Part shown: piece after piece, positions 8 through 37,490 of the stretch
How the letters are laid out: every line of letters starts with the position of its first letter
Position numbering within the stretch: position 1 is the stretch's first letter
Assembly: GCA_963971425.1 (NCBI GenBank)
Contig: OZ020520.1
Location: forward strand, 10,043,807-10,107,806
DNA: 64,000 nt
Direction of reading: 5' to 3'
Source of the DNA: Bryoerythrophyllum caledonicum
Lineage: Eukaryota; Streptophyta; Bryopsida; Pottiales; Pottiaceae
Translations under genes and position numbers: made by a program
Notes under the pieces: generated by a model
The model's input: only the letters and a program-made list of their open reading frames with translations
What the model was told of the DNA's origin: nothing
Database searches by the model: none

Positions 8-472
8 TGTCACGGACATACCTTAGAAGAAACGTTAGAAAGTCTTAGAAGACTCTAGAAGTTCTAGGAAGACTCTAGAAGGTTCTGGAAGACTCTAGAA
101 GACCCTGGAAAACTCTAGAAGATTCTAGAAGACTATAGAAGGTTCTAGAAAACCTTAGAAGATTCTAGGAGACTCTAGGAAGTTGTTAGAGAAGCTTCTT
201 GTAGGAAGTTGTTAGAGAAGCTTCGTAGTTCTTAGGAAGTTACTGGAGAAGCTTCTTAGCTTGCGTGGAAGTCGCTCGAGAAGCTTCCATAAAGGCCTTA
301 CGCCAACAATATAATTAGGAGTTGAGGCTGAAGGTGTCTTCAGTCTCGATAACTCACTCTTGTGGTCTAGCCAAGGCCTTCTTGTACCTTGTTCTTGTTC
401 TAGTTCCTTTTCTAATATCAAGTTAGCTCTCTCTCTTGCCTTCAATCCTTGTTCTGAGTTTGGTCCCTGACA
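8..472 (+). repeat. 5' LTR of the gypsy element
   Basis: 465 bp, bounded by TG...CA. The first 180 bp are a run of near-10-bp units built on CTAGAAGA. Positions 181-290 carry repeated GAGAAGCTTC blocks; the left LTR has one more copy of the GTTGTTAGAGAAGCTTC block than the right LTR, which explains the length difference (465 versus 449 bp). Confidence 0.93.
58..170 (+). promoter_or_regulatory. Cluster of heat-shock-element-like motifs in the LTR U3
   Basis: Three perfect three-unit heat-shock elements of the form GAAnnTTCnnGAA lie at 78-90, 118-130 and 138-150, with a near-perfect fourth at 158-170 (last unit GGA). Further GAA units recur about every 10 bp on the same helical face. The same motifs are present in the right LTR. 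In plants such trimeric arrays are the binding sites of heat-shock transcription factors; the copia element ONSEN uses them for heat activation. Function here is inferred from the motif only. Confidence 0.6.
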
Positions 473-748
473 GTTTGTCGAGACTAACTTCATTCTCAAT
501 ATCAGAGTTAGACTCTTCTTAGAGAGTGTGGATCATCCCTCTTCTTGCAAGGTGCACTAACGCATTAGGAGTTGCGGATTACCCTCTTCTAAACTGATAT
601 TTCTTTCTTCACAATATTGGAGCTGTATTTTTGTGAGAGAGTGGATCACCCCTCTCCTTAAAAGTATTAAGGCATTCTAGAGGTTGCGGATTACCCTCCT
701 CTAGACCAATATTGTGTTTCTTTAGATTCATTTTTTTTTTTCTTCAGA

Positions 749-1777
749 ATGACTGGAGGTCAAGAGATCAGTATGACTGAAACTTCTGAGTCCAAGTTAG
801 ACGCAATCATGAACGCTCTCGCGGCTTTATCAACTAGAACTGCGGATATTGAAGGAGTTATTGCAAGAATTCATAACGATGATGCATCTGGGACAGCTCA
901 AGTTGGACTTCACCAACTTCATACTTCTACGCCGGAAGAAGCAAGTTCACGTACAGTTCGACAAGGCCCACTTGTTCAACAACAAAGTGAACCTCGAATA
1001 AGTCTTCCACATAAGTTTGATGGTACACGCTCTAAGTTTCGAGGATTCATCAATCAAAATCGATTAATAACAGTTTTGCAGCCTGAACGCTATCCAACGG
1101 AAGTATCGCGTGTTGGATTGGTTGGAACGTTACTTACAGGGCAAGCTTTATCATGGTTTGCTCCATTCTTCGACAAAGGCTCATCAATTTTAAACAACTT
1201 TGAAACCTTTTCGGAGGCATTTGCGGAAGCATTTTGAGAACATGACAAAGCACGATGGGCTACAACAAAGATTCGATCACTACGACAAGGAGCACGTTCG
1301 ACATCAATCTATGCATCAGATTTCAAGCAATTAGCGTGCGACATCAATTGGGACGAAGAAGCCTTGATTAGTCAGTTCTATTGGGGTTTACGAGACGATG
1401 TGAAGAATTTACTATTGACTCTTCTTGATCCACGAACATTGAATGAAGCTATTAGTCAAGCCGTGAAGTGCGATAATAGATTGTTTCAACGACGCCAAGA
1501 TCAACGCTCTTGGACTTCATCAAGACAAGATACGACCCGTCACGCTCCACCCATGTCGACAAATAGTCTGAATTCACATTCAGATATAGAAGACATGCAA
1601 ATTGATGCGGTACGATTTAAACCCCTTACTCCAAAAGAAAAGAAGCGTCGTATGGAGAAAGAATTATGTTTGTATTGCGGTGACGAAGGTTACAAGGCTG
1701 GAAATTGCCCGAAGAAACAGAATCGACGCATCATCAAGACCAGGGGCGCAATCATTCAGGAAGACGAAAATGCCTAG
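749..1777 (+). pseudogene. gypsy gag (capsid/nucleocapsid), one in-frame stop
   Basis: Gag packages the element RNA into virus-like particles. The frame opens at the ATG at 749 and is interrupted by a TGA at 1235-1237, then continues in the same frame to 1777. A retrotransposon capsid region follows an acidic N-terminal segment; near the C-terminus is one zinc knuckle at about 1666-1710, CLYCGDEGYKAGNC, in which the expected His of CX2CX4HX4C is Tyr (CAC to TAC would explain it). The pol frame overlaps the gag end in the -1 frame (1705-1777), so a programmed -1 frameshift is possible, though decay is equally likely. Confidence 0.85.
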
Positions 1778-4700
1778 CCACAATAGGAACCGTGCGGCTG
1801 GACAATTCGGTTACACAACAACAATCAAGTTCCTATCTTTCCGCTCAACTTGCCCGTTGCTTTACAGTCCCCTTGTCTTTAGGCCCTCAAAACCTCAAAA
1901 CCTCAGCTTTATTAGATTCAGGAGCCTCAGCTTACTTTGTAGATGAAGACTTTGCCAAAGATCATAATATTCCTCTTATACAGAAATCCAAACTTGTTCA
2001 TGTAGAAGTAATAGATGGACGACCTTTGTCCTCTGGAAGTGTCACTCATGAATCAATACCTATAGAAGTGACATTTGCAGGCTATAATAGCCGTATTATT
2101 TTCAATATCATTAGAACCCCGTCAAATCCTGTCATTCTTGGCCTTTCATGGTTAGAAAAGCATAACCCATCTATAGATTGGAAGTTGCGGAAGATAATAT
2201 TCTCTACAGAACGTTCCAAGAAAAAACCTATTAAAAAATCGCCAATCAAGAAGCCCTTATTTATTAGAGCAAGAGCATTCGTAAGATCGTCAAAGGAGGG
2301 TACTCCATTTGTTATCTATGCGACTCCAATTTGCGAAAAAAAGACTCTTGCAACATGTATACCAGAGTAGTATAAAGATTTTGAAGATGTGTTTCACAAA
2401 AAAAACGCCGACATGCTACCGGAGCACCGACCATATGATTGTGCCATAGACTTACAAGAAGGTGCACAACCACCTTTTGGCCCAATTTATAATCTATCGC
2501 AAACAGAATTGACGGAGTCATGTCAATACATTGACGAGAATCTAGCCAAGAATTTCATTCGGCATTCAAAGTCACCGGCGGGGGCACCCATCTTATTTGT
2601 AAAGAAGAAAGATGGTTCTCTACGGATGTGCGTAGACTATCGAGGTCTCAACAAGGTAACAAAGAAGAATCGCTATCCGCTACCTTTGATTTCCAGTCTT
2701 CTTGAACAACTTGGGAGCGCCAAGATCTTTACAAAGATTGATCTAAGGGGAGCTTACAACCTTGTGCGAATCAAGGAAGGAGACGAATGGAAGACAGCCT
2801 TCCGTACGAGGTATGGCCATTTTGAATATAATGTCATGCATTTTGGTCTAACCAACGCTCCGGCAGTTTTTCAACACATGATGAATGACATTTTTCGAGA
2901 ACACCTAGACGATTTTGTTGTCATCTATTTAGATGATATTTTAATATTTTCTAAGAACCGAGACGAGCACGAGAAACACGTTCGTTTGGTCCTCGAAAAA
3001 TTATGCAAGCGGGGACTCTATGCCAAACTTGAGAAGTGTATGTTTCACCAACCTGAGACGGAATTTCTAGGATACATTGCAACTACGGAGGGCTTGAAGA
3101 TGGATCCCAAGAAGGTGGAAGCAATCATGTGCTCGGAAGTTCCAAAGACGGTTAGAGACGTACAATGTTTTCTTGGATTTGCTAATTTTTATCGAGTCTT
3201 TATCAAGAATTACTCTCAAATAGCTGCTCCGCTCACTTGCTTGATTTGTAAAGACAAGCTTGAATGGGGGCCTTCAGCAGAGAAAGCGTTTCAAGATCTT
3301 AAAACGACATTTACCACAGCTTTAATCTTCGTACATCCGGACTTTACAAAGGCTTTCTATTTAGAAACTGATGCTTCAGATTTTGCTTTAGGAGCTGTAC
3401 TTTCACAAATGAGCGAAGGCGAGAAGCTCCATCCAGTTGCGTTCTATTCTCGTAAGTTTTATGCTGCTGAGATTAACTATGAGATCCACGACAAGGAACT
3501 TCTTGCTATTGTGGATTCCTTTCAAGAGTGGCGCCACTTTCTTGAAGGAGCGGCGCATCCGGTGACTGTATATACAGATCACAAGAACTTGGAGTATTTC
3601 ATGTCCGCCCGAGTTTTGAATCGTCGTCTAGCTCGATGGAGTATGTCACTATCTCGATTCGACTTTGTTATCACTTATCGACCTGGTAAGCAACAAGGTC
3701 TATCAGATGCACTATCGAGAAGATCGTATCTTACGCCACGGGCCGGAGAAGCAACGTTTGATCAACAATGTACGACATTGTTGAAGCCCGAGCACTTTCA
3801 ACTTTCTCCTGCGATTGTGTCAATTGATGTTGACTTCCTGAACCAGATACGTGTAGCGACCATTGGAGATTCTATAACTGTTGATATCAAACAACGTGTC
3901 AATAATGGAAATTTCAAGGTAGAAGGCGATCTTTTGTACTTAGAAGAACGACTATATATTCCAAAAGGGCATGAACGACTCCGAGTTCTTCAATCTCGTC
4001 ACGACTTTCCAGCCGCGGGACATTTTGGATTCAACATGACATTAGAACTTATTTCCCGAGATTTCTAGTGGCCTAAGATGTGGAAGGATGTGAAGGATTT
4101 TGTCACCTCTTGTGACATTTGTTCAAGATCAAAGAATCCTCGGCATCGCCGTTATGGTCTTCTACAACCTTTGCCTATTCCGCATCGACCATGGTCTTCA
4201 GTTTCTATGGACTTCATTACAAATTTGCCGCTATCAAATTCTTTTGATAGCATCTTTATTGTGGTCGATTGACTTACAAAGATGGCACACTTTATTCCTT
4301 GTAAGAAGACATCATCAAGCGAAGACACGGCAAGATTTTTTCTTCATAACGTTTACCGATATCATGGCCTACCAGACGACATCGTATCCGATCGAGGTAC
4401 CCAATTTGTATCAAAGTTCTGGAGATCTCTTTTTGCTACATTGAAAGTAGATATCAAGCTTTCTTCGAGTTTCCATCCTCAAACCGACGACCAAACGGAA
4501 CGGGTTAATCAAGTCTTAGAGCAATATTTACGATGCAGCATCAACTATCAGCAAGACAACTGGACGACATATCTATTGCTCGCAGAGTTTGCATATAACA
4601 ATACTCTCCATGCTTCAACTCAGCAAACGCCATTTTATTCCAATTATGGATATCATCCGAAACTTGATTTGCTGACTTTGCCAACCACTAACAATCCAGC

Positions 4701-5265
4701 GGCTGAGGACTTTGCGAATCAACTATTACAGCTTCAAAATACTTTGAAGCTTCAACTACAAACGGCCCAAGATTCTTACAAGGCAGCTGTAGATAAATTT
4801 CGGACTCAAGCACCGCCTTTCCACGTTGGAGATAAAGTATGGCTTCTTCGACGGAATATCAAGACCAAGCGGCCTTGTGATAAGTTGGACTACCGGCGAT
4901 TGGGCCCATTTGTCATCAAGAAGCAAATCAATCCAGTAGCATTTCGTCTAGAGTTACCATTTACAATGAAGGTACATCCAATTTTTCATGTTTCCCTTCT
5001 AGAGCCTTACGAGGAATCATCCATTCCTGGAAGACGACAATCGGTACCACCTTCCATTGAAATCGATAATCATGTGGAATATGAGGTGGAAAAGGTTCTT
5101 GATTCTCGCCATAAACATGGCAAGTTGGAGTATTTTATTCATTGGCACGGCTATGATATCAACGAGCGAACGTGGGAACTAGCAGAAAATTTGGATAATG
5201 CGCCGCAAAAAGTCCAGGAGTTTCATCAGTGCTATCCTGATAAGCCAAAGCCTTTCCAACAATAA
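1705..5265 (+). pseudogene. gypsy pol: protease-RT-RNase H-integrase-chromodomain
   Basis: One reading frame with in-frame stops at 2368-2370 (TAG), 4066-4068 (TAG) and 4270-4272 (TGA) and no frameshift. Protease motif LLDSGAS near 1908. Reverse transcriptase has the YLDD catalytic box at 2926-2937. RNase H carries TDASDFALGAVLSQ and YTDHKNLEYF. Integrase has the HHCC zinc domain (RHDFPAAGHFG, then CDICSRSK at 3990-4130) and a DDE core: Asp in MDFITNLP near 4207, Asp in SDRGTQF near 4387, Glu in [10 protein letters not shown] near 4495. A chromodomain ([12 protein letters not shown] to WELAENL) lies at about 5071-5200 and in known chromoviruses steers integration toward particular chromatin. 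The stops fit Arg CGA to TGA and Trp/Gln to TAG. Confidence 0.93.
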
Positions 5266-5419
5266 CTTCTTCTTGACAATTCTAGACCTCTGACCTAACA
5301 AAGAAGGGGAGGAAGAAACTCGTGAACCGGTGGTTAGAAAGTATAAATTGCCGCTTAAGTTCATTGTTTTATGCTTATAGTTTGTTTTCTCTATTGTTGC
5401 CTAGTTTAGATTCTACATT

Positions 5420-5707
5420 ATGAAGAGCCAGGAGATAGATACTATGCCAGTCATGTTATCTCAGCCTAGTAGCTCACGAAGACGACCTCGAGATGAAGGA
5501 CCACCTGCACCACAAAAACGACGAAGGATACCGAGTAACAGGTCTCTAGTGATTGTGTTTGAAGTAGAGCCCGCCTACGACGGTATTGTCGAGGGAGTTT
5601 TTGTAGGACAGTTCCACAATGAAGACACTGAAGTTCATGCGTGGTCGGAAGTCAAAGGCGTTGGACACTACCGATGGCTGCAAGGACCGATGAACCACCT
5701 ACCTTGA
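5420..5707 (+). CDS. Small extra ORF between integrase and 3' LTR
   Basis: 95 codons, unbroken although gag and pol carry stops. The first half is Ser/Pro/Arg-rich with a bipartite nuclear-localisation-like pattern (RRRPRDEGP followed by QKRRR). The second half is mixed acidic/hydrophobic (VIVFEVEPAYDGIVEGVFVG). No signal peptide or membrane span, so it is not envelope-like. It sits after the chromodomain stop and before the polypurine tract, where some plant elements keep accessory ORFs. I do not recognise a family; chance survival of a short ORF cannot be excluded. Confidence 0.4.
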   Translation: MKSQEIDTMPVMLSQPSSSRRRPRDEGPPAPQKRRRIPSNRSLVIVFEVEPAYDGIVEGVFVGQFHNEDTEVHAWSEVKGVGHYRWLQGPMNHLP

Positions 5708-5808
5708 GATAGACAATTGGAGTTTATCGTAGATTGTATGCGACAAATTTTCAATTTTTTACGATGGTAGGCTTGCAACAACCTAGACTTCTCGGAGACC
5801 TCAAAGCT

Positions 5809-5822
5809 AAAAGAGGGGATAA
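5809..5822 (+). other. Polypurine tract of the gypsy element
   Basis: The purine-rich run AAAAGAGGGGATAA directly precedes the TGTCACGG start of the 3' LTR, the normal site for plus-strand DNA priming. Confidence 0.8.
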
Positions 5823-6271
5823 TGTCACGGACATACCTTAGAAGACACGTTAGAAAGTCTTAGAAGACTCTAGAAGTTCTAGAAGACTCTAGGAAGACTC
5901 TAGAAGGTTCTGGAAGACTCTAGAAGATCTTGGAAATCTCTAGAAGATTCTAGAAGACTATAGAAGGTTCTAGAAAACCTTAGAAGATTCTAGGAGACTC
6001 TAGGAAGTTGTTAGAGAAGCTTCGTAGTTCTTAGGAAGTTACTAGAGAAGCTTCTTAGCTTGCGTGGAAGTCGCTCGAGAAGCTTCCGTAAGGGCCTTAC
6101 GCCAACAGTATAATTAGGAGTCGAGGCTGAAGGTGTTTTCAGTCTCGACAATTCACTCTTGTGGTCTAGCCAAGGCCTTCTTGTACCTTGTTCTTGTTCT
6201 AGTTCTTGTTCTAATATCAAGTTAGCTCTCTCTCTTGACTTGAATCCTTGTTCTGAGTTTGGTCCCTGACA
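5823..6271 (+). repeat. 3' LTR of the gypsy element
   Basis: 449 bp, colinear with 8-472. Heat-shock-like trimers recur at 5903-5915, 5943-5955 and 5963-5975, with the near-perfect one at 5983-5995. It ends CCTGACA and is followed by the GAGGC duplication. Confidence 0.93.
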
Positions 6272-6276
6272 GAGGC
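6272..6276. repeat. Right target-site duplication of the gypsy element
   Basis: GAGGC, identical to 3-7. Beyond it the copia integrase frame resumes. Confidence 0.9.
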
Positions 6277-8854
6277 ACACGTGAACACCTTACACGCCGG
6301 AGAAAAATGGAATCGCGGAACGTGCAAATCGTACCATAGTAGAGATGGCGAGGAGCATGATCAATGCACAATGCCTAAAACTTGAATTTTGGGCGGAAGC
6401 GGTGGCCAATACGATCTACATCCCTAATCAATGTCCAGCAAGGAATCTCGTCAACATCACACCGCAAGAAGCTTAGAGTGGCGGCAAGCCATGCATTGCG
6501 CATATGCGTGTGTTTGGATGCATTGCATATGCAATAGAACCGGATAGAAAGAGGAGTAAGCTTGATGCAAAAGGCACAAAATGTTTGTTTCTTGACTATT
6601 GTGAGGGCACTTAGGCATATCGTCTCATGTGCATTGAGACAAAGGAGATCATTAAGAGTCGTGATGTAGAATTTGTTGAAGATACTTCTAGTATTGGTAA
6701 TGTTTTGGAGATGAGTCCAACTGGAAGAAGCGAGACCCCTACCTTGGTGGACAAATCTTCCAAACCACCACTCTTGAAAGATAGCCATGGCGATACCAAG
6801 AAATAAGAGAGATTGAATGCCAAAGAAGAAGGTGTTGCATCTTCGTCAACACCTTCACCAAACGATGAGGACTTGAAGAACTTACATGAACCGCGGTATC
6901 GAAGAAGAGAGTGTCGACCGCCCGGTGAATGGTTGAAGAGCCACATTTTGCCTCAACATGAGATAGGGCGTGCTAATATGGCATCATTGGAGGATCCTTT
7001 AAACATGTGTGATGTTATGCAATCGGAGGATGCAAGCAAGTGAGAGTCAGCCATGCAAGAGGAGTACAAATCGCTCATGGAGAATGGCACGTGGAAGTTG
7101 GCTCCTCTTCTAAAGGATCGCAAGAGCGTTGGATGCAAGTGGGTGTTTCGTACGAAAAATGATGCTCCGGATCGAGTGGTGCGCCAAAAGTCAAGATTAC
7201 TTGCCAAGGGGTACTCTCAAGTTGCGGGAGTAGACTTTCTTGAGACATATGCTTCCGTTGGCAACTTCATCACCATTTGGTGCATTTTTGCACTTGGTGC
7301 GGCCTTGGACTTGGAGATCCACCAAATAGATGTGAACATTGCATTCTTAAATGGTGAGTTAGAAGAGGACATTTACATGGACCAACCCCAAGGTTTTGAA
7401 CAACAAGACTTTGATCATCTTGTGTGCAAGCTCAAGAAGTCATAGTATAGACTCAAACAATCAGAAAGAGCATGGTACCAACGCATTGATGCTTTCTTTA
7501 CTAAGGAAGGTTTTACAAGGAGCCAAGCGGACCATTCTTTGTACATCAAGCAAACGGGTGAATACTTGGTGATAGTCCTCATTTTTGTGGATGACTTGAT
7601 TATCTTGGCTAGCAATTTAGCTAAGTAAGCGTGGCTCAAAGGTAAGCTCAACACGGTGTATGACATAAGGAATCTTGGTGAATTAAAGTATTGCCTTGGT
7701 GTGGAGTTTGTGAGAGACTACAAGGCACGCACCATCACCATGAGTCAAAAAAAGTTTATTAAGGAGGTGCTAAAGCGCTTCAAAGTTCAACATGGAGGAG
7801 TGCAAGCCCATTGGTACCCCTCTTGATGTCAATGTCAAGTTCAAGAAGCTTCTAGAAAAAGAGTTTCAAGCCATTCAAGGTGAGATGGAAGGCATGCCAT
7901 ACAAAAATGGAGTTAGATCCTTGATGTATGCCATGGTAGGCACAAGACCTGACATTACTTTGAGGTGAGCATGGTGAGCCAATTCATATCTAAGGCTGAT
8001 CCGACACATTGGAGTGTTGTGAAGCGTACAGGGTTGTCTACATAGACGGACAGGGGTCCAAAGACAGCGGACGGACAGACAATCAAAGAGACGGACATGA
8101 CGGACAACATCTTTACAGGACAGATGCCTAGAATATTTCAAAAAATATTCTCCAAATCTATAGGAATATTCCGGAATATATTGGAATATTCTAGAATATT
8201 GTCTACTAGACAGACAACAGCCTCTATCGGACAGAGAGCCAGGCAGACGGATACTACCGGACGGACGGACGCCGGAACAACCATGGAAGCACATTATGCG
8301 GTACTTGCAAGGTACTATAGACCACAAATTGTGCCTTGGTGGTAAGGACATTGCTTTTGAGGGGGTATTGCGATGCTGATTGGGCCGGAGATGCAAACAA
8401 GCATTGTTCGACTACGGAGTACGTGTTATTTGTTGGAGTTGGTACCATCTCGTGGAATTGCAAGGGGCAACCAACTATTGCCTTGTCCACGATGGAGGCG
8501 GAGTACATGGCAACTAGCCAAAGTACAAAGGAGGTCATTTGGCTTCGCAAGCTCTTGGCGGATGTAGGGTTTGTTCAAAAAAGAACAACGACTATCATGT
8601 GCAACAACCTAGGGTGTATAGCTCTTGCAAAGAATCCCACACACCTCTCACGCACAAAACACATTGATGTGCAACATCACTTCATTTGGGAGAAGTTAGA
8701 GAGTGGCGAGATAAGCTTGAAGTATTGTCCAACGGAAGACATGGTGGCGAATGTGTTGACAAAAATACTTGCGAAAGAGCGGCATCAAAGGTTAGCAAAG
8801 GCAATGGAATTGCGAGAAGGTAACTACTCGCAAAGTGGGAGTGTTAGAGATTAG
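6277..8854 (+). pseudogene. copia pol: integrase end, reverse transcriptase, RNase H
   Basis: Integrase: a region reading EKNGIAERANRTIVEMARSM at about 6300-6360 is the conserved copia integrase end, followed by the FGCIAYA segment. Reverse transcriptase begins near 7053 (GTWKLAPL, GCKWVFRTK, YSQVAGVDF) and holds the catalytic FVDDLIIL near 7582-7606. RNase H resumes after the MITE at 8286 ([15 protein letters not shown], then [11 protein letters not shown] and [11 protein letters not shown]). Stops at 6474, 6612, 7041 and 7443 and frameshifts around 7630-7830 show it is dead. The reading frame across the MITE is restored if the MITE and one 8-bp repeat are ignored. Confidence 0.9.
8029..8285. 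mobile_element. hAT-type MITE inserted in copia RNase H
   Basis: 257 bp, starting CAGGGTTGT and ending ACAACCATG, giving short imperfect inverted ends of the hAT kind. The 8-bp flanks are GAAGCGTA (8021-8028) and GAAGCACA (8286-8293), a near-perfect 8-bp duplication. The interior holds many GGACGGAC-type subterminal motifs and an AT-rich core of interlocking GGAATATTCC palindromes (8140-8200). The end sequence CAGGGTTGT is the same as the right end of the 10-kb hAT element at 60323-60331, suggesting that family could mobilise it. Confidence 0.8.
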
Positions 8855-17443: not shown

Positions 17444-18168
17444 CTTGCACATCGCGAACTCGGACGTGGTCTCGATCCACAATGTGTCGATCCGCGGCGA
17501 CTTCAACTCCCCGAATACGAACGGGATCGACATCGACTCGTCAAATAACACCGTGATTGAGGACTGTGACATCGACACTGGGGACGACGCCATTTGCGCC
17601 AAGACGATGGTCGGGCCTCTTGTCAACGTAACGCCCGGTCAATTTTTTTTCCCTATTATTTCAACGCACGTTACAATGCAGAATGTTCGCGACAACCGGG
17701 CATTCCGGATTCCTCACACTAAAATGCCCGGCTATCAAGATTACGGGCAGCATTAAAATTTCTCTTCCCAATTCTTTCATAAATTTTTCAAATTATTCTT
17801 TCGATCAATAAACTTAATTGTGGCGTACTATATTATAAAGCCTACTAGAATTTTTACTTTTATTTAAACAAAAGTAATGAGTTGACACCACAACAATATG
17901 AAATAAAGACAAAACATTTACAACATCCAATTTACAAAGAAATGACAACTGATTTGCACAAAATTGCCATCTAGTCTGCACATAGTTTGCACATACAATG
18001 CCCATACTGTCGAGGAATGGCACTTAGTTAGCCCATAGTTTGCACATGGCTCAACAATGCACTATTTCCTACAAAAAATTTAAGCCATTTAAGCCAATGA
18101 CCTCAGCTCCATCTTCCATATACAATTCTCTATTCACTTCCAAGATGAGCTGCCAAGCTTCACTGCTA

Positions 18169-21100
18169 CTACTTCAGGGTACTCGCACTATCCTACAATT
18201 ACAACAGGAAGAGTTAAAAAAGAATACCATAGAAGTAAAATATAAGAGCAAACCAAGAACTCAGACAATAATTCACACCTTGCACTGATCGAGAAGTGCC
18301 TTAATAGTAGATGCATCCAACACTCCACCAATGCTGAAAAAATTACAGCCAGTGACAGCTCCGAAAGATATTCCTCTAGAAGCATCCTGCACATGCTCAT
18401 GAATGAAATTATCAACATTAGAATGACAACATTATTGAAATGCAATTGAAATGAAAAGAATCTTACCCCTATACAAAAGTAAGAATTTTGAAATGAGAAA
18501 AGAATCTTACCCCTATACAAAAAGCTCCATTTTCGCCCTTGTTGCACACAGGTGTAGATATTGTTTCTGTATATCCCTTCGGCTTCTGCAAAATACCACA
18601 TTTGTAAGAGTACAAATATAGAATATTCATAACAAAAGCACATATTATCATAAATACTACCTGATCTGAGTTCCCAAGTTGGATCACTGCAGCAGAAGCC
18701 AAGTCTGCATTCTGATTACATTACATACCAACGTACCGACGTGATTAGAATATAGTTGTATAATATAGAGTAAACCGAAATAAGATGATACAAAACCAAC
18801 AAAGAATAGCAGAACTTGACGTCATACCTTCAAACTCTTCATCTTTTGCTCTTCTTCCAAGAGTAACTCGCCAAATTTACTGGGGTCACCGCTAATCGCC
18901 CTCTGGCAGATCCTCATATCGACCTCTGCCGAATTAGAGTTGTACTGGTTGAAGGACTTCTCGTCTCTGTGACCTGTCACTCTCATGCTCTTTTCAACAG
19001 GGATGTTAGCTTCAATCATCCTCGAGATTCCAATACGACGAAGGGACTTATTGGTAAACTTTCGACCGTCAGCATTGATGCCTGGGGTGGCATTAATCAG
19101 GTCCCTGACCAAGTTTCCTAAGGGATTTTTTCCCATAGGCCTCGGATGGAACCAGATGATATCACGGGGCTTCAACTTCAGTTTTGGCATCAGGAACAAC
19201 GGATGACCAACATTCCCAAAAGCTCTGGACAGTGTCGCATGCGTCGGCCGATGAAGCATGACTGTTTTAAAAGTCATCACAATATCAGGATCGGCCATGT
19301 CAATGGGCATTCGTAAGCTGTGGCTAGAACATCGATCCACTGTAAATTTATAATTTTTTGAGAGCGTGGGTTTGTACCTGAAATCGCATAAAATGTGCAC
19401 ATATCAATGCTTTATTATACTGGAGAAGACATCAAGGGGGAAATAAACAAACACAAACTCACCGAAGAATTTCAGTTCCATTGACATTCAATAGCTCGAA
19501 TTGGTCAAGTACCGTATCACGCAGTTCTTCTTTGCCACGAATGAACATGTTTCTACATGCAAAGTACCCCAACCTTGTGTTACAACCCTGGGGGTTCTGC
19601 AAACTCGCAGCAGGGCTCGCCAAGAGACGTAACTCCTCTTCAACTGTAAAGACGTCACTAGTGCGAACTCGTGACCCGAGACCCTTCCTGAAAGCCCGAT
19701 TTACAGCAGCCGTTCCCGCTACTTTCACCTTTCTGTACCTCACATCGCGAAAAATGTCAAATGGAACTTCGAACACGGACGTCTCAATTATCCTTTGCTC
19801 TTGCCTGCGACGAATCACACGACCGATCGCCCTTAACATACTTTGAATCCTTCAAACAAACAAGAAGTAATTATAATCAGATTTTCATATTTGAATAATA
19901 ACGCCCGGTCAACGCAAATTTCACAAACGTAAGAAAGACTGACTGTACTTACAAGCCAGGCGGATACAGTGAACCATCTCTCTTCGTGACCTGTAGGGCA
20001 AAATCGTGTAACATTTGGACAAAGCCACGAAGATCCGATTGTTCTGAAAGCTCTTCAATGCTAAGGTCAGTTGAATGACCAAAGCATATGCGCCACTCGT
20101 CAAATGCCCTTATGGCCCACGTCTCCGAATGCCGGCTCTTCTTTTCTCCGCCGCCAGCAACAGCATCAACCTCCTTTTTATCGAGCTGAAGAAATCGACG
20201 ACAACTACCATGCTCACCAGAATTGGAAGTTTTGGTATTAGCTGGTTCACTTCCCGCTTCACTACTTTGAATGTCAGGTTGTCCATCTTCGAAATCCTCA
20301 ATGCTGAGAGCAAACGTTGATCCATCAGGATCTTTATCATCTTCATTGCAACGCGGCTTCCCCTCCAACCAATCCAACTCAAGATCGTTGTCAACTTCCT
20401 CCTCATCATCTTCTTCATCAGTTGAGTCATTCGCTTTCACTGCACAGCTAGAAAAAATCAGAATTAGACAGACATCTCAAACATTGAAGCAATAGTACAT
20501 GTCGAATAAACCTTACCAATCTGTACATCAGCATGAGTATCGCCAGTTGATATGTCATTGTCTCTGGCACCATTATCGTCAGATCCAGAAGCTTTGGCAA
20601 GTGCGGCCATATCTACACAACAAACCATATGTAAATAAAAAGAAGAATTAGACGAACACTTCCAAACCAATATATTCTACAACACAAAACAAAGCCTCTG
20701 AGATTTACCTGTATTGGAAGAAATGTTAATGCAGATGACACCTATAAAATGACTAGTTAGATAATACAAGTAACAATAAGTATCAAGAAAGCATGATAAC
20801 ATGTAACATGTAAATTACCTTTCGGTTTAGGTACTGAAATATTTGATGCATCATTACAAACCAGGCTTACAGCAGGACAAACAAGACCTGCAAAAACAAG
20901 CCATGTCAAACAATCGATAAACTCACCAAAAACCACCTCATACAACAGTTAGTCAATACATTAGTCAATACAAGCGACAACATACACTCAGAAGTGGAGT
21001 CCTCCTCAACAATGACATCCTTCTCGATGTCGACACCTGCAAGGACCAAATTAGTACATTAGAACATTAACAGGCTTAACATCAATGTCGTTATAATAAA

Positions 21101-21656
21101 ACATAACATCAACACAGCTACTATTAGTCAGCCACGGGCTAAATTACTAGATTCTAAATTCAAATTCTAGATTCCAGAACTAAAATAAATATCACAAATA
21201 TATAAGTGCAACTACAAGTCAACAAATCAATTACCTGACATCCGCTGAGACTCAGTGAGATAATTATCGTATGACAAATTACACCACTCATTCACTGCAG
21301 CTTCGTCATCTGAAGATTCAACAACATGCTCCAAGAGTGACAAGTACTCTTTATGACGTTGCTCTAGTTCCAGTTGAAGCTGAAATTCGGTTGCTCGTGG
21401 ATCATTGTTCAAACATCCTCCTAACAACAACAAAAGCCAGATGTCAGCCAAATCCTCTAATTATGATACCTAAATTGCATCACTAACTTGTATAACTTTG
21501 TTCAGATTGCCTACTTGGATCCACCATCGGATCAGCTTCGCTTTTAGGCTCCATCTTTGGAACACCTGCCGAGACTCCAAGGCTAAACAGAAAAGCTGGT
21601 GGAGACGAATCCAGTACATGCAGGCTATCGGAAGCAATCTTCCGCTTTTTCTCCAT
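18169..21656 (-). CDS. Crypton/DUF3504-type tyrosine recombinase, 13 exons, 761 aa
   Basis: Exons on the minus strand: 21656-21488, 21420-21235, 21036-20986, 20887-20819, 20741-20709, 20612-20517, 20439-19953, 19849-19463, 19377-18828, 18711-18661, 18585-18511, 18386-18279, 18192-18169. Every intron is GT-AG and the 2286-nt sum reads without a stop. Residues 1-6, MEKKRK, look like a nuclear signal; 200-300 are acidic and disordered; 305-370 form a SAM-like core-binding part (WAIRAFDEWR, DGSLYPPGL). The catalytic domain shows FIRGKEEL (Arg468), a K-S-L-R at 603-606 where His-x-x-Arg is usual, TGH (His629) and NQY (Tyr638). This matches the domain shared by Cryptons and ZMYM/QRICH1-type derived proteins. 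Tyr and both Arg remain, so cleavage-rejoining activity is plausible. An acceptor AG just before 21660 implies a 5' UTR intron. Confidence 0.85.
19899..19912 (+). repeat. Internal copy of the element's terminal motif
   Basis: TAACGCCCGGTCAA at 19899-19912 is identical to 17629-17642 in the left TIR, in the same orientation, and lies in the intron between exons 7 and 8 of the recombinase. A 14-bp match with high GC in an AT-rich setting is unlikely by chance. It could be a binding or recombination site. Confidence 0.6.
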
Positions 21657-21660
21657 CGAT

Positions 21661-23290
21661 CTGAAAAATCAAATGAGAAATATGAACAAAATTTCGAACA
21701 TGAATGCTTACAATAAATATATGAAAAGCAGACAACTACCTGGTGGTCGCCATCCCAAAGACACAAAACCACAAAACCACAACGTCCAACATAAACGGGA
21801 TGGACAATATACAGCGGCAAGGACATTTATAGATAACAAAGCTGGATAAGTTGGATACAAGCAATTGACGGTCAGATCAAATCTAATCAACGGCGTTGTC
21901 CTAGTTTAAAAACAAAATGCGCGGGGTCGTAGACATCCACAAAGCTTCCACGCTGACGTGTCATGAGCATTAACCATCCGACATACATAAAAAATCCACA
22001 TTCAAACGACATACATCTACAAAGGCCTTACATAGGACATACCTTTACAACGCAATGAACGCCTCGTTGGCAGACCTCCTCCATTGGGTAGCCATAGCGC
22101 CTCCCCTGCACGCATCCTCTGTGCGCCTCCATCGCACCTCCTCCGTGCTTCCATCGCGTCTACCAATAATTGCTCGGTCACTAAGGTCTCAAAGTATACA
22201 CAGCAAGAAGTACACACCAAACACAACAAACAAAGCATAGAAACTAAGGATGGCAAACTCGATGTGGAACAATGCCCACCAGGTTGCTTAAGTACCTTAA
22301 GCAAAGGCCAAAGTGCGCCACTGTTTCCATCACGCGCAACAACGGCCTCAACGCCACCATCGACACAGCCTACTTGTTTCCTATCTTTGGGTGACATTGA
22401 TAACTTAGGAGAGAGACGATGAAGCCCCTACAGCTAATGGCTCAGAGCATTGCGTTGGAACTCCGCAACCATGATGTGGATGAAACACATGGATGGAAAG
22501 ATGACCGATGACCTGAGGAACAAGTTGTCTTCTAGAACCATCCAAACTTTCATCGGATGGCTTAGGTAAGCTCACTTTGATCCAACGGTCGATGGCTAAT
22601 TAGGGTTTTCCATATTCAGCCTCCATCTCGAAGGAGATCTCATTTTCTTCTCAGTAAGGGTGCGGCTTTCATGTTCTATGGTGGACATTGCTCTGTAGTG
22701 CGAGCGCATCATTAGTTGCGAGTGCGTAGTTCTAGCACTTAGTTTGCATTTTGGCCGCAATGGTGCTTCAATAGATATCATTTCGTTTTGTACAATTCTG
22801 CAACTACACAATGTCTTCGTGTGTTTGGTCTGTGTACAGTTGATCACTTGCTGCTCTTGTAATATCCTCTCTTGTGCATATGTGCGTTCATTGTTGTTGG
22901 TCGTATATGTTCATTGTTGTTGGTCGTATGTGTGTATCGTTCCAGCATATGCCAGCATCGTTCGCGAGCTCCATTGGTGACCATGAGTATGACAACATGA
23001 TATACCTTCTCCATGGACTGAGGACATCTGTTCTGGTCAGAACAATTATTCACAGCAGTAATACCTCAAACAATCTTGTACATACTAATCTTGTTTTTCT
23101 TGTTGAACTGAATCGGCAATGATCGTGAACTTCAAACTGTAAAGCAACTATATGAACTTTGAACTGTAAGAAAGCCTCCACAGAAATTACTTCAATATCA
23201 CAGTTGCCACAAACGGGCTGACTTGGGCACAAGCGGGCATCGCGGGTAGCTCAATGCCCAACGGGCAGAAAAAAATCGACCCGGCGTTAC
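21661..23290. other. Upstream (5') side of the recombinase gene within the element
   Basis: Contains the presumed promoter and 5' UTR of the minus-strand recombinase. Short ORFs exist on both strands (for example 22017-22397) but none resembles a known protein or has consistent coding character. Two near-identical TTGTTGGTCGTATGTG-type blocks repeat near 22893-22935. Confidence 0.4.
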
Positions 23291-23414
23291 GTAGGGGGAG
23301 TCCCCCGCGGTCGGGCCTCACGGCCTGTTCGGCTCCCTCCGCGTCGGGCTCCCGCCCTCCGCGTCGGGCGCCTCACAGGCCGTGAGGCCCTCCCGCGCGG
23401 GCCTCCCCCTATAC
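23291..23414. repeat. GC-rich foldback sequence next to the TIR element
   Basis: Arms beginning GTAGGGGGAGTCCC and ending GGCCTCCCCCTATAC pair over about 40 bp, including CCTCACGGCCTGT against ACAGGCCGTGAGG; the loop holds two copies of CCTCCGCGTCGGGC. It lies exactly between the right tip of the TIR element and the resumed GH28 exon at 23415. It may be a separate foldback MITE or part of the larger insertion. Confidence 0.6.
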
Positions 23415-23872
23415 TTGACCGTGCGGAGGATCTCGATCCGGACCAAGTCGTGCGCGCTCAAGGTGGGGAGCGAGACGCGTTATGACATTGCCAATCTTCA
23501 CTTCGAGGACATTGCTGTCGTGGATTCACACCGAGGCTTGGGGATCCAGCTCCGTGATGCAGGTGTGTGTGCCCTCTCTGCCATCCTCAAACCTAACACC
23601 CTAAACCTGAATATCCTTATATCTTTCCATATCTGAATGGGTTGCCATTCATTCTTTCTAAACCGGAATTCTTGTGTCATGCTTCGGTACATAAACATGT
23701 CGCAATTTATCCTTCCTAAACCCCAATCTTTATGCTTCCATATCTGAACATGTAACAAGATATCCTTCCTAAACCCGAAACCCTAGTTCATCGTTCCTAA
23801 ACCCGAAATCCTAAACCCTCGTCTTGAAAAACCTGAACTTTTCATGCTTCAATATCTAACCATCCTACACGT

Positions 23873-32486: not shown

Positions 32487-34030
32487 GTGAAACATGACAA
32501 GGTTGCTAGAAGTATTCAAAACATTAATGAGAACATGATCATGGTTGTTAGGAGTTATTGGCAACAACTAGCATGAGCTTTCATTAAACTACCATGATCA
32601 TAGTGCCAAGTAGATTACCACTTTGCCACTAATTAAAATATTTGAAAAAATATATAAGATTCTTGTCATGTTTTAAAATCCCAAAAATAAACATGAAAAT
32701 AATTGATTTTTCCAAAAAATAAATTGGCCAATTAAATTTCAAAATAGAAGTTAAATGAAATATTTTCCTACAAGTGGTAAAAGAACAACATTGTGTATTC
32801 CAAAGTTTGTTTTTAGGCACCAAAAACTTGGAGGGAAGAGAAACTAGTGGACTAAACATGGAGGGAGCAAGTGTGATTGCCTCAGACCAAGCAAGTAGTG
32901 CCCAAAAAGAAACACTCATGTATTCTACCAAATCAGGTGAGAGCTAGAGAAGTCATAGAGTAAGAACTAGTGGTAACAATTATGTAGTCAAGAAAAAAAA
33001 TTACAATTCTTTTTAACATTCTTTATAGTTTACTGTACCCAAGGTTGAGATTTAGAATATAATATTTCTATCATAGCTGCCAAAAAAAATTGGAAATTAT
33101 TTTTTCAAAAAAAAAAAAATATCTCTCGGGTGGGGGGGGTACAATTTGCTTATTACATTCATTTTCCTAAACATCAAGTTTTGAAAATAAATTGATATCT
33201 GGCATAAAATATATATAACTTGATGTTTAGTAAAAGTAGTGTTCTCAAAATTTACATTTCTCTATATATAATAGAAACCGATTTGTCATGTGTCTATTGA
33301 AACGGTTTTCATCTTACTATGCTAAGGTGACATATTTTAGAACAAAATCTTTTGGAGGAATCACTTTGTCTTTTGAACATTGCGACTAATAAATCAAATG
33401 TGCCCTTTAATTTTTGTTAATGCGCTCTTTCATTTAAATTTGGATAGCCATTTCATTAATATTAAATTAGATGATACCCATATGAACTTTTTTAGACAAA
33501 AATTTAAGAATTCTGATGACACCACAGGGTATACTACCCCGGGTATATAAATGGATATTTAAAGTAATAAATGGATATTAATAGTACATGATGGGTATAT
33601 AATCTCCTTCTTGCTATATCAAAATTGGTTTTCTAATCACACACCAAGATTTTACGAGAAGAAGGGAAGATGGTGTACAAAAAGAAAGAGTAGTAGCTTG
33701 ACTAGCACTCCTTTACTTTGCTGATGTGCCCTTGCTTATGTTGGTTCGGGCATTTCCGTTGATGTCAATATTCAGTTCTTAGTTATTCATGAAGAAGTTG
33801 ATAAATACTTTCTAAATATGCAACTAAATTTTTTAATTCAAAAACAAACTTACATCCTACAACAATGATGTTTTGGGTGAAATATTATTGCATTGAATAG
33901 TCTGAAGAAGAAAAATGAGTCTCAACAAAAATGAAGCACATTGTACAGACAAATGAAGCAAAAAAAAAAGTGAGGTGATTTTTTTATATTTCTCCAATGA
34001 CTCTCCAATCCCTTCGCCCGTCGGTTACAT
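32487..34030. other. Gene-poor AT-rich stretch
   Basis: Homopolymer runs and no supported coding sequence. A short inverted pair, AACATCAAGTTTTGAAAAT-like near 33170 and ACTTGATGTTTAG near 33218, can fold. Confidence 0.35.
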
Positions 34031-34109
34031 CGGGGGTTCCACTCGTAAATATATATATATATACTAGTGGGGTACTCGTGTCCTCCGGACACAACATTTT
34101 TTTGTGTTG

Positions 34110-34290
34110 AGTCCCCACCTCCCCATCCCCTAGCCCTTTCCCTCCAATCCATCGTCCCCTCCGTCCTTGTCCCCCGTCCCCCGTCCCCGTCCCCATCCCC
34201 TTGTTCCCCGTCCCCTTGTCCCTCGTCCCTCGTCCCCCGTCCCTCGTCCCCGTCCCCGTCCCCGTCCCGTCCCTTTATCCAAAACCCTAA
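34110..34290 (+). repeat. C-rich minisatellite (GTCCCC units)
   Basis: Repeated CGTCCCC/CGTCCCTCGTCCC units on the plus strand between an AT-rich tract (34049-34063) and a duplicated TTATCCAAAACCCTAACTTTTAG (34274 and 34307). Low complexity; short ORFs across it are not credible. Confidence 0.75.
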
Positions 34291-34330
34291 CTTTTAGCTT
34301 TTCATTTTATCCAAAACCCTAACTTTTAGT

Positions 34331-34950
34331 GCCCATCGTCCCGACGGGGAGAGCGGAGTGTGGTGTGTTAAATTTAAGTTTGTATGTTTTGTATTTTAAA
34401 ACCTATAAGCTCAAATCGAATCTAATTGGAAAAGTACATATATTTTTGGAGGGCATGTAAACGTTACCCTAGCTTAAATCCACTTCAAAAATAAAGTACT
34501 TTTGCTTTACATTTGCATTTTGATCAACCCTTTGTGCACTTAAGTATCACTTGCCCAATATAAGAGGAGAAACCCCTTCACATCAAGAGGTCAAAATCAA
34601 GAGTCATTAGGTTACTACCTAATATCAAGAGTCAAGAAGAGTGCATCACCGTGCCTCACCCTTCACATCAAGAGGTCAAAATCAAGAAAGAGAGTCACGT
34701 GACCGGGAGTTAAAATTTATAACTTTTAACTTTCCCACCACTTTTTCATCCAAGCTCGACGTGTTTTACATCCGACGTGTTCATCCACTTGACGTGTTCT
34801 TCATCCTGTATTCTTATATATATATACTAGGGTTGGTACCCGTCGTCCCGACAGGGAGAGCCGAGGGTGTGTTAAATTTACGTTTGTATGTTTTGAATTT
34901 TAAAACCTATAAGCTCAAATCGAATCTAAATGGAAAAGTACTTCCCCCGT
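34331..34950 (+). repeat. Two direct copies of a CATCGTCCCGACGGGGAGAG-containing repeat
   Basis: About 110 bp at 34331-34445 recurs at 34838-34945, sharing GTTTGTATGTTTTG and TAAGCTCAAATCGAATCTAA. Each is preceded by a TATATATA tract and ACTAG(T/G)G, so they look like ends of one transposon family; the class is not clear. Confidence 0.5.
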
Positions 34951-35233
34951 TGTCATCAACTGGCCGGGGCAATTCCAAGTTAAATAAACATATGTAAATG
35001 CAAAAATCAAATTAACCTATTATATACGCATTATGTACTATATATACCTATTATTCACTTTAAATACCCATTATTTATTTCATATACGTGTTATTGTCTT
35101 TAGATAACTATCATTTATTTTATGTACCCGAGGTAGTATATTGTGTAGTTTCAATATGTTGGAAATTATGGTTTTATTTTTCTATTTTTGATACATAATA
35201 CAATTTTAAAACTCAATAAGCCAAATTTGAATA

Positions 35234-35445
35234 AAAGGGCACTATAAAGGATTCCTCCAAAGGGCACTATAAAGGATTCCTCCAAAGGGCACTATAAAGG
35301 ATTCCTCCAAAGGGCACTATTAAGGATTCCTCCAAAGGGCACTATAAAGGATTCCTCCAAAGGACACTATAAAGGATTCCTCCAAAGGGCACTATAAAGG
35401 ATTCCTCCAAAGGGCACTATAAAGGATTCCTCCAAAGGGCACATA
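35234..35445 (+). repeat. 25-bp tandem repeat, about 8.5 copies
   Basis: Unit AAAGGGCACTATAAAGGATTCCTCC in near-perfect head-to-tail copies starting at 25-bp steps from 35237, with few mismatches (one AAGGACACTAT, one TATTAAGG). The high identity suggests recent expansion. Confidence 0.95.
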
Positions 35446-35554
35446 TGGAGTATTCTTTCAAAGTTCACATTCAATTCAAAGGACACATTTGATTCAAATG
35501 GCAAATCCAAAGGTCACGTGACCAGGAGCGGCGGACAGACGGACTGACGCCTAT

Positions 35555-36600: not shown

Positions 36601-37408
36601 ACGGAAGAAGAAAGAAGAAGAGAAGAAGAAGAAGAAGAAGAAGAAGAGAAGAAGAAGAAGAAGAAGAAGAAGAAGAAGAAGAAGAGAAAGAAAAGAAGAA
36701 GAAGAAGAAGAAGAAGAAGAAGAAGAAGAAGAAGGAAAGAAGAAGAAGAAGAAGAAGAAAGAAGAAGAAGAAGAAGAAGAAGAAGAAGAAGAAGAAGAAG
36801 AAGAAGAAGAAGAAGAAGAAGAAGAAGAAGAAGAAGAAGAAGAAGAAGAAGAAGAAGAAGAAGAAGAAGAAGAAGAAGAAGAAGAAGAAGAAGAAGAAGA
36901 AGAAGAAGAAGAAAGAAGAAGAAGAAGAAGAAGAAGAAGAAGAAGAAGAAGAAGAAGAAGAAGAAGAAGAAGAAGAAGAAGAAGAAGAAGAAGAAGAAGA
37001 AGAAGAAGAAGAAGAAGAAGAAGAAGAAGAAGAAGAAGAAGAAGAAGAAGAAGAGAAGAAGAAGAAGAAGAAGAAGAAGAAGAAGAAGAAGAAGAAGAAG
37101 AAGAAGAAGAAGAAGAAGAAGAAGAAGAAGAAGAAGAAGAAGAAGAAGAAGAAGAAGAAGAAGAAGAAGAAGAAGAAGAAGAAGAAGAAGAAGAAGAAGA
37201 AGAAGAAGAAGAAGAAGAAGAAGAAGAAGAAGAAGAAGAAGAAGAAGAAGAAGAAGAAGAAGAAGAAGAAGAAGAAGAAGAAGAAGAAGAAGAAGAAGAA
37301 GAAGAAGAAGAAGAAGAAGAAGAAGAAGAAGAAGAAGAAGAAGAAGAAGAAGAAGAAGAAGAAGAAGAAGAAGAAGAAGAAGAAGAAGAAGAAGAAGAAG
37401 AAGAAGAA
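36601..37408 (+). repeat. Long (GAA)n tract
   Basis: About 800 bp of almost pure AAG/GAA triplets with a few interruptions (single-base slips near 36648, 36683, 36735, 36766, 36911 and 37054). It lies inside a sequence bounded by ATGGACTTAG at 36568 and its complement near 37468. Encoded Lys/Arg/Glu or Phe/Ser/Leu runs are artefacts. GAA/TTC tracts of this length can form triplex DNA. Confidence 0.97.
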
Positions 37409-37490
37409 GGCCGGTTCCCGTAGGGAGCCGGCGTGAATAAAGTGTCCGTTCGTTCCACTACTAAGTCCATGCCCACCGGGCATAGGTTAG
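37409..37490 (+). repeat. Dispersed hairpin-bearing repeat, copy 1
   Basis: GCCGGTTCCCGTAGGGAGCC forms a hairpin followed by GGCGTGAATAAA and TTCGTTCCACTACTAAG, CCATGCCCACCGGGCAT. The same series occurs in inverse orientation at 56517-56602, so this is the end of a mobile-element family. Confidence 0.6.

Follow-up and report, generated by a model that had tools for sequence, protein, structure and literature searches.

A repeated element with a Crypton-type tyrosine recombinase gene and Helitron2-like ends in Bryoerythrophyllum caledonicum

Cryptons are poorly understood DNA transposons of eukaryotes. According to the passages of PMC3212892 drawn on here, terminal repeats, direct or inverted, are absent from animal Cryptons, those of fungi and oomycetes carry 4-6 bp direct repeats, non-autonomous derivatives have been described, the distribution table holds no land plants, and one mitochondrial DUF3504 protein of a green alga is mentioned as a candidate. 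The automatic label "Crypton" has been given to 535 entries in soybean (in an excerpt of PMC8729191), and "Crypton-H/A" appears in a table published with the sour cherry genome (in an excerpt of PMC10722297); the portions seen of the open-licence literature searched yielded no structural description of a land-plant Crypton, which is a weak basis for calling the family described below unpublished. Helitron2 elements, as characterized in sections of PMC3627910, have a terminal 5' arm and a 3' arm placed just upstream of a 3' hairpin. The locus analyzed here lies in a stretch of 64,000 nucleotides of the Bryoerythrophyllum caledonicum genome (Bryopsida, Pottiaceae; assembly GCA_963971425.1, contig OZ020520.1, positions 10,043,807 to 10,107,806 of the forward strand), hereafter the window, in which a repeated element carrying a tyrosine recombinase gene interrupts an exon of a GH28 gene, which encodes an enzyme of the cell wall. 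We consider this element to be, probably, a Crypton-like tyrosine-recombinase DNA transposon with Helitron2-like ends, which would move by way of a circle with joined ends.

Genome copies and the limits of the element

A sequence-only reading of the window had proposed a mobile element whose sole recognized gene is an open, many-intron Crypton-type recombinase, and had looked to other loci with the same ends to support it. Such loci were found: when the genome (437,360,962 bases in 894 contigs) was searched with the first 134 bases of the element, 14 matches were obtained, the window included, and all four long copies examined (the window copy, L009, L012 and L021) carry the recombinase behind the same left end. 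A query made of the 142 bases preceding the right-end hairpin gave only 5 matches, because the short copies, internal deletion derivatives of 192 to 579 bp, retain little of that part. The copies fix the ends of the element, which begins with GTAACGCC (17628) and finishes with CTATAC (23414). The span first assigned, 17627..23291, therefore had to be extended at its right side, where the hairpin at 23292-23411 is part of the element.

Boundaries and target duplications were compared among 13 copies, as the same reading had suggested; L012 was excluded from this table, as it is preceded by another copy and the fetched stretches did not show its own right end. All left ends read GTAACG, except for GTAATG in L010. 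Target duplication is absent in 12 of the 13 copies, L016 alone having one of 2 bp. The base preceding the element is C in 12 copies (P ~1e-7 at a flank C frequency of 0.216) and the base following it is A or T in 12, while identity between the left flank and the right end extends over 0-4 bp, usually C or AC; the element also ends in C, and a single shared or duplicated C is therefore indistinguishable from a preference for C. At the right side, TAC comes after the anchor in 9/9 copies whose right end was placed without using TAC. For L017, L019, L020 and L021 the right end was set by the motif TATAC, which is thus present there by construction, and that of L021 was additionally placed by alignment. 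Similarity to the hairpin reaches 23414 or beyond in 10 of 13 fetched stretches, that of L012 belonging to the neighbouring copy; in L017, L019 and L020 the right end was located by the motif and not by hairpin similarity.

Inverted ends of about 25 bp had also been described, and the pair is real: 22 of 24 bases match between 17626-17649 and 23269-23292, against a maximum of 18 in 1000 shuffles and of 16 in 1000 random pairs of window stretches. It is not, however, a symmetric terminal inverted repeat (TIR), given that the left arm is terminal and the right arm is set 124 bp in from the end of the window copy. Pairing of the arms is conserved at 17-20 of 22 positions in 12 of the 13 copies; the remaining value, 12/22 in L018, compares the ends of different copies, since L018 consists of two short copies in tandem. 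The right arm is found 103-124 nt inside the end in 10 of 13 copies (L018 being counted among these only by its 12/22 match), 38 nt from the end in L017 and L019, and 23 nt from it in L020. Moreover, the CGGGCA-type subterminal motifs noted earlier at both ends were recovered, as all 5 occurrences of TGCCCG in 17627-23291 fall within about 120 bp of the two ends of that stretch, with 20 occurrences in the whole window.

These features bear on a first alternative, namely that the element is a DDE-type TIR transposon with the recombinase as a passenger. There is a precedent in MarCry-1_FO, a Crypton fused with a Mariner element that has 16-bp TIRs and TA duplications, as given in part of PMC3212892. 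Here, 12 of 13 copies lack a target duplication and the 2 bp of L016 stand isolated, the arms are not both terminal, and no DDE or Rep/helicase domain was detected in the 5 open reading frames (ORFs) scanned in the window copy outside the gene or in 6 of the 11 ORFs listed for L021; a DDE transposase in other copies, the outcome named beforehand as contrary to a recombinase element, was accordingly not seen in the ORFs scanned. A DDE passenger origin is, in our opinion, most improbable.

The right-end hairpin folds at -55.2 kcal/mol in the window copy, compared with a mean of -29.5 for shuffled sequences (z -9.2), and is 103-124 nt long in most copies. Eleven hairpins were aligned, from 10 of the 13 copies and from the copy preceding L012, leaving aside L017, L019 and L020, whose hairpins measure 38, 38 and 23 nt. 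Compensatory changes were observed at 11 of 38 pairs, meaning that at least one sequence has both sides altered with pairing kept (e.g., near the base, where GC has become UA in four of them); these changes are shared among related sequences, and 11/38 is not a count of independent events. Pairing is also broken in places, for instance with two broken cells at each of columns 10, 16, 18 and 31. The 38-nt hairpins of L017 and L019 retain the GGGTGAG/CTCACCC base. That the hairpin might represent a separate nested insertion was considered and rejected, as family copies carry it at their right end.

The interrupted host gene provides a further view of the insertion. Joining 17627 to 23415 restores the GH28 frame through Val-Asn-Leu-Thr, which upholds the initial claim of a cut between Asn and Leu, and the Asn-Leu joint is obtained only with cuts at 17625/23413, 17626/23414 or 17627/23415. 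The rejoined protein matches Pfam GH28 with an E value of 1.4e-17, and its alignment with the solved structure 5olp runs through the joint, where it is ungapped. The best structural relatives of this protein are 5olp and 3jur, which we take to be bacterial, followed more weakly by 7b8b (ADPG2), presumably from Arabidopsis.

Precise head-to-tail joints between copies were found at 2 of the 14 left-end loci. In L018, two short copies meet at TATAC/GTAACG. In L012, the joint reads TATAC/CTAACG, where a copy of 280 bp is followed directly by the left end of the long copy, with C replacing its first G; the hairpin of the 280-bp copy is 84% like that of the window, and the joint links two unlike copies. 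Judging from these junction sequences, the element ends themselves may serve as targets, as the joints suggest.

The recombinase gene and its persistence between subfamilies

The recombinase gene, whose model was set exon by exon, has the 13 exons first reported and no internal stop, the coding length being corrected from 2286 to 2259 nt including the stop, which corresponds to 752 aa. All 12 introns are of the GT-AG type and measure 75-198 nt. GC content is 0.46 in exons and 0.31 in introns, each of the 12 introns being GC-poorer than the exon that precedes it, and a TATA-like sequence was noticed by eye upstream of the start codon. An automatic splice model with 21-22 exons over-split the gene and was discarded. 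A 14-nt segment of the left arm recurs exactly in intron 8, in direct orientation, with 3.5e-5 copies expected by base composition. A 26-nt exact direct duplication was also observed at 18453-18522, with one copy in intron 12 and the other across the edge between this intron and exon 12.

The recombinase signature announced from the sequence was found as R465...K600xxR603...H626...Y635. Among the R-H-R-Y residues, both arginines, the later histidine and the tyrosine are present in the window protein, the histidine of HxxR being replaced by lysine; the spacings of 23 from R to H and 9 from H to Y correspond to those known for Cre. The pattern [HK]xxR(20-24)[GA][HW](7-9)Y, composed after the sequence had been seen, has one match, in exon 10, among 52,705 residues of six-frame segments of at least 40 aa. 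In Pfam, residues 428-583 are matched by DUF3504 (E 0.028, profile positions 2-160 of 162) and residues 591-639 by Phage_integrase (E 0.052), each below the curated cut-off. In PHROG only two families were matched, both integrases, with E values of 0.0094 and 0.028 for the whole protein and of 5.7e-4 and 0.0032 for the 137-aa exon 10 piece, whose first residue was V in place of the M of the gene model. No match to DUF3435 was listed in the Pfam search, an NCBIfam search with the 137-aa piece returned no match of any kind, and the search of solved structures gave no relative at the thresholds used, its two rows being at chance level (E 1.4 and 1.5). Among viral contigs, 16 stretches fit a search pattern and 0/16 encode a relative of exon 10. 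A single-sequence structure prediction of exon 10, with a mean predicted local distance difference test score (pLDDT) of 30.5, was not used.

The long copies fall into two subfamilies. The first comprises the window copy, L009 (5767 bp) and L012. Relative to the window, L009 has gap-free exons and 20 gap positions in its introns, together with an in-frame stop and an altered splice site, and L012 lacks 229 nt of exon 10. The second, diverged subfamily is represented by L021 (7794 bp, 302-8095 in element orientation), which contains stops. Among the four long copies, the reading frame is open throughout in the window copy only. DNA similarity between the window copy and L021 (E <= 1e-3) appears only at the left and right ends and across the exon 8-10 region, where it takes in the intron between exons 8 and 9; in the protein, exons 2-3 and 13 match as well. 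Within L021 the two arms agree at 19/21 or 20/22 positions, a closer agreement than the 16/21 between its left end and that of the window. In the aligned recombinase, from residue 206 onward, 318 of 503 codons encode the same amino acid, with proportions of nonsynonymous and synonymous differences (pN and pS) of 0.23 and 0.85, the latter saturated; this alignment omits pieces starting before residue 200 and the stop positions of L021. As read from these codons, the recombinase is under purifying selection between the two subfamilies.

Our chief reason for not treating the recombinase as a chance passenger is that it persists, together with the ends, between subfamilies. The sequence-only reading had allowed for a captured recombinase, an alternative that is weakened by the ends and the recombinase being what the window still shares with L021. 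One form of it is a domesticated host gene with a host function, picked up by the element: the animal DUF3504 genes are domesticated Cryptons, according to passages of PMC3212892, and one open copy was seen here. The animal genes have lost the tyrosine and the second arginine in that account, whereas both are present in the window protein; the gene lies behind the same left end in four long copies, and L009, L012 and L021 bear stops, changed splice sites or deletions, like dead transposons. We therefore regard a host gene as very unlikely. The features of the locus are collected in Table 1.

Table 1. Features of the element, its recombinase gene and the interrupted GH28 exon (window positions).
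Feature	Position	Strand	Remarks
Whole element	17628..23414	.	5787 bp; in GH28 exon; ends from 13 copies and GH28 frame
Base C directly before left end	17627	+	C in 12/13 copies
Left terminal arm GTAACGCCCGGTCAATTTTTTT	17628..17649	+	20/22 complementary to 23269-23290
Left subterminal cluster	17697..17749	.	3 TGCCCG motifs
Right subterminal cluster	23234..23268	.	2 TGCCCG motifs
Right subterminal arm	23269..23290	-	directly upstream of hairpin; best match of left arm in last 260 bp
GC-rich hairpin of right end	23292..23411	.	58-nt arms, 81% complementary, GC 0.79
Right terminus CTATAC	23409..23414	+	TAC after CCCCCTA-type anchor
Tyrosine recombinase gene	18273..21753	-	13 exons; start codon at 21753, stop ends at 18273
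Recombinase exons 1-7	21740-21753, 21515-21660, 21235-21420, 20986-21036, 20819-20887, 20709-20741, 20517-20612	-
Recombinase exons 8-13	19953-20439, 19463-19849, 18828-19377, 18661-18711, 18511-18585, 18273-18386	-
Exon 9	19463..19849	-	presumed first catalytic arginine R465 (FIRGKEEL)
Exon 10	18828..19377	-	K600xxR603, H626, Y635
14-nt exact copy of left-arm part	19899..19912	+	inside intron 8 of recombinase gene
Left part of interrupted GH28 exon	17444..17627	+
Right part of interrupted GH28 exon	23415..23562	+

Proposed mechanism and the Helitron2 alternative

Taken from the anatomy of the copies, the mechanism that appears best supported would start with the Crypton-type recombinase binding the paired end arms. 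The enzyme would then join the right end (arm, hairpin and CTATAC) to the left end (GTAACGCC), possibly using the folded form of the hairpin, and the resulting circle would insert at a C^A/T step, using next to no homology and duplicating no target bases. Head-to-tail joints are predicted if a recombinase acts on ends that match, and those in L018 and L012 have the form expected after integration at an end already in place.

Several of our results weigh against this scheme. The Pfam matches of the protein lie below the cut-off, and the unrelated HA1 scored as well as they did (E 0.019); HA1 and the likewise weak DUF5894 (E 0.22) match outside the catalytic region. The lysine in place of the usual HxxR histidine is common to the window copy, L009, L012 and L021, and the first arginine is a cysteine in L021. 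The window copy is the sole open one, and the ratios of nonsynonymous to synonymous substitution rates (dN/dS) of the three close copies, which range from 0.83 to 1.16 over the gene as a whole and from 0.95 to 1.49 in the core, are as expected for decay after insertion and thus give no evidence of selection among them. Furthermore, the Helitron Rep domain has at least 152 matches in the genome, with 150 of 492 candidates scored.

The last point leads to the main rival explanation, in which the element belongs to a rolling-circle family of Helitron2 type, mobilized in trans by RepHel, that captured the recombinase long ago as cargo or as an accessory resolvase. The abundance of Rep-domain matches means that such help would be available, and in 5 of the 13 copies the 5' end is followed, 35 nt downstream, by a 6-nt sequence complementary to it (67 nt downstream in L021), like the 5' hairpin of Helitron2. 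Helitrons too are known to form tandem copies. The end architecture itself is of the Helitron2 type: a terminal arm, a subterminal arm before the 3' hairpin and a target defined by the kinds of bases on either side are described in parts of PMC3627910 and PMC5148889, and a fungal element of Helitron2 type has likewise been found with joined ends (in part of PMC5148889).

On the other side, among the Rep-domain matches listed, the one closest to a left-end match (14 in all) is still about 80 kb away from it. Paired element ends were found neither at 3 RepHel genes (about 10 kb on each side) nor at 8 others (1.5 kb), a small sample searched for exact strings only, in which one left-like and one right-like string, each unpaired, were seen near the genes. 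No Rep or helicase domain occurs in the ORFs scanned above, the 5' base is G and not T, and the C^A/T target is not among the Helitron targets named in part of PMC5148889. Moreover, the recombinase has been kept by selection between subfamilies with no other recognized gene, which is unexpected for the cargo of a non-autonomous element. Altogether, we judge a captured recombinase in a Helitron2-type family to be rather unlikely, and favour the Crypton-like transposon moving through a joined-end circle. As a separate observation, the Rep-domain matches (loci L029-L042 among them) fall into two score classes, one of which has very long open frames of up to 2139 aa, and this suggests two kinds of Helitron in the genome.

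We know of no in vitro system for Cryptons. The present family offers a recombinase with defined arms, a hairpin, target bases and natural end joints, from which the reaction can be reconstituted. If it is the recombinase that moves the element, Helitron2-like ends would cease to identify rolling-circle transposition, and annotation based on ends would need revision.

Elsewhere in the window, a Ty3/gypsy-like element with matches to gag, reverse transcriptase and chromodomain occupies 1238-5262, and a fragment of a Copia-type reverse transcriptase (RVT_2) is present at 7044-7442. Nested inverted repeats at 33388-35494, perhaps another inverted-repeat element, pair 33550-33603 with 35019-35072 (81%) and 33517-33551 with 35119-35153 (80%). 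A GAA microsatellite of about 269 copies extends over 36604-37409.

Comparison with described systems

Compared with DDE transposons bounded by TIRs, the element differs in having no consistent target duplications and arms that are not both terminal, and compared with Helitron1 (5'-TC, CTRR-3', insertion between A and T) it differs in its ends, GTAACG and CTATAC. With Helitron2, or Helentron, it shares the terminal 5' arm and the subterminal 3' arm before a 3' hairpin. It departs from Helitron2 in the 5' G in place of T, in a C^A/T target in place of the known Helitron2 preferences, in arms of about 22 bp as opposed to 8-15, in a longer hairpin that sets the arm much further from the end, and in the ORFs of the window copy and L021 that were scanned, none of which is a RepHel gene.

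The likeness to Cryptons (CryptonA/CryptonI) lies in a recombinase as the sole recognized gene, with a DUF3504-like catalytic region (a weak match), in the lack of target duplication in 12 of 13 copies, with at most short direct repeats at the ends, and in the occurrence of short non-autonomous derivatives. Cryptons have no terminal inverted repeats, whereas the element has paired inverted arms (17-20/22 in 12 of 13 copies, one of them subterminal), a long hairpin end and 13 exons. Because inverted end repeats are present and the sequence relation is weak, we place the element beside Cryptons and not as a proven member.

Among bacterial elements moved by recombinases, Tn1549 has imperfect inverted repeats of 11 bp and its circle inserts with single-base homology, as reported in sections of PMC5871717. 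Tn916/Tn1549 thus resemble the element in having a tyrosine recombinase, imperfect inverted repeats at both ends and minimal-homology insertion, and differ from it in being bacterial and conjugative, with AT-rich ends and, in those sections, no description of a terminal hairpin. Starships, with their DUF3435 captain, are eukaryotic elements with a tyrosine recombinase as mover, the role proposed here; they differ in being large, in having the captain as first gene and in carrying direct repeats derived from the target, according to part of PMC12506042.

We also consider, tentatively and as a possibility that we would not put first, that the family represents a new class of eukaryotic transposon, in which a Crypton-type recombinase would work on a folded hairpin end, form a circle by joining that end to the opposite arm, and insert the circle at C^A/T with one-base homology. 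In bacterial integron cassettes, a tyrosine recombinase acts on folded hairpin DNA, and likeness of mechanism to that system is conjecture. The ends of such a class would be convergent with those of Helitron2, and its chemistry with that of integron cassettes.

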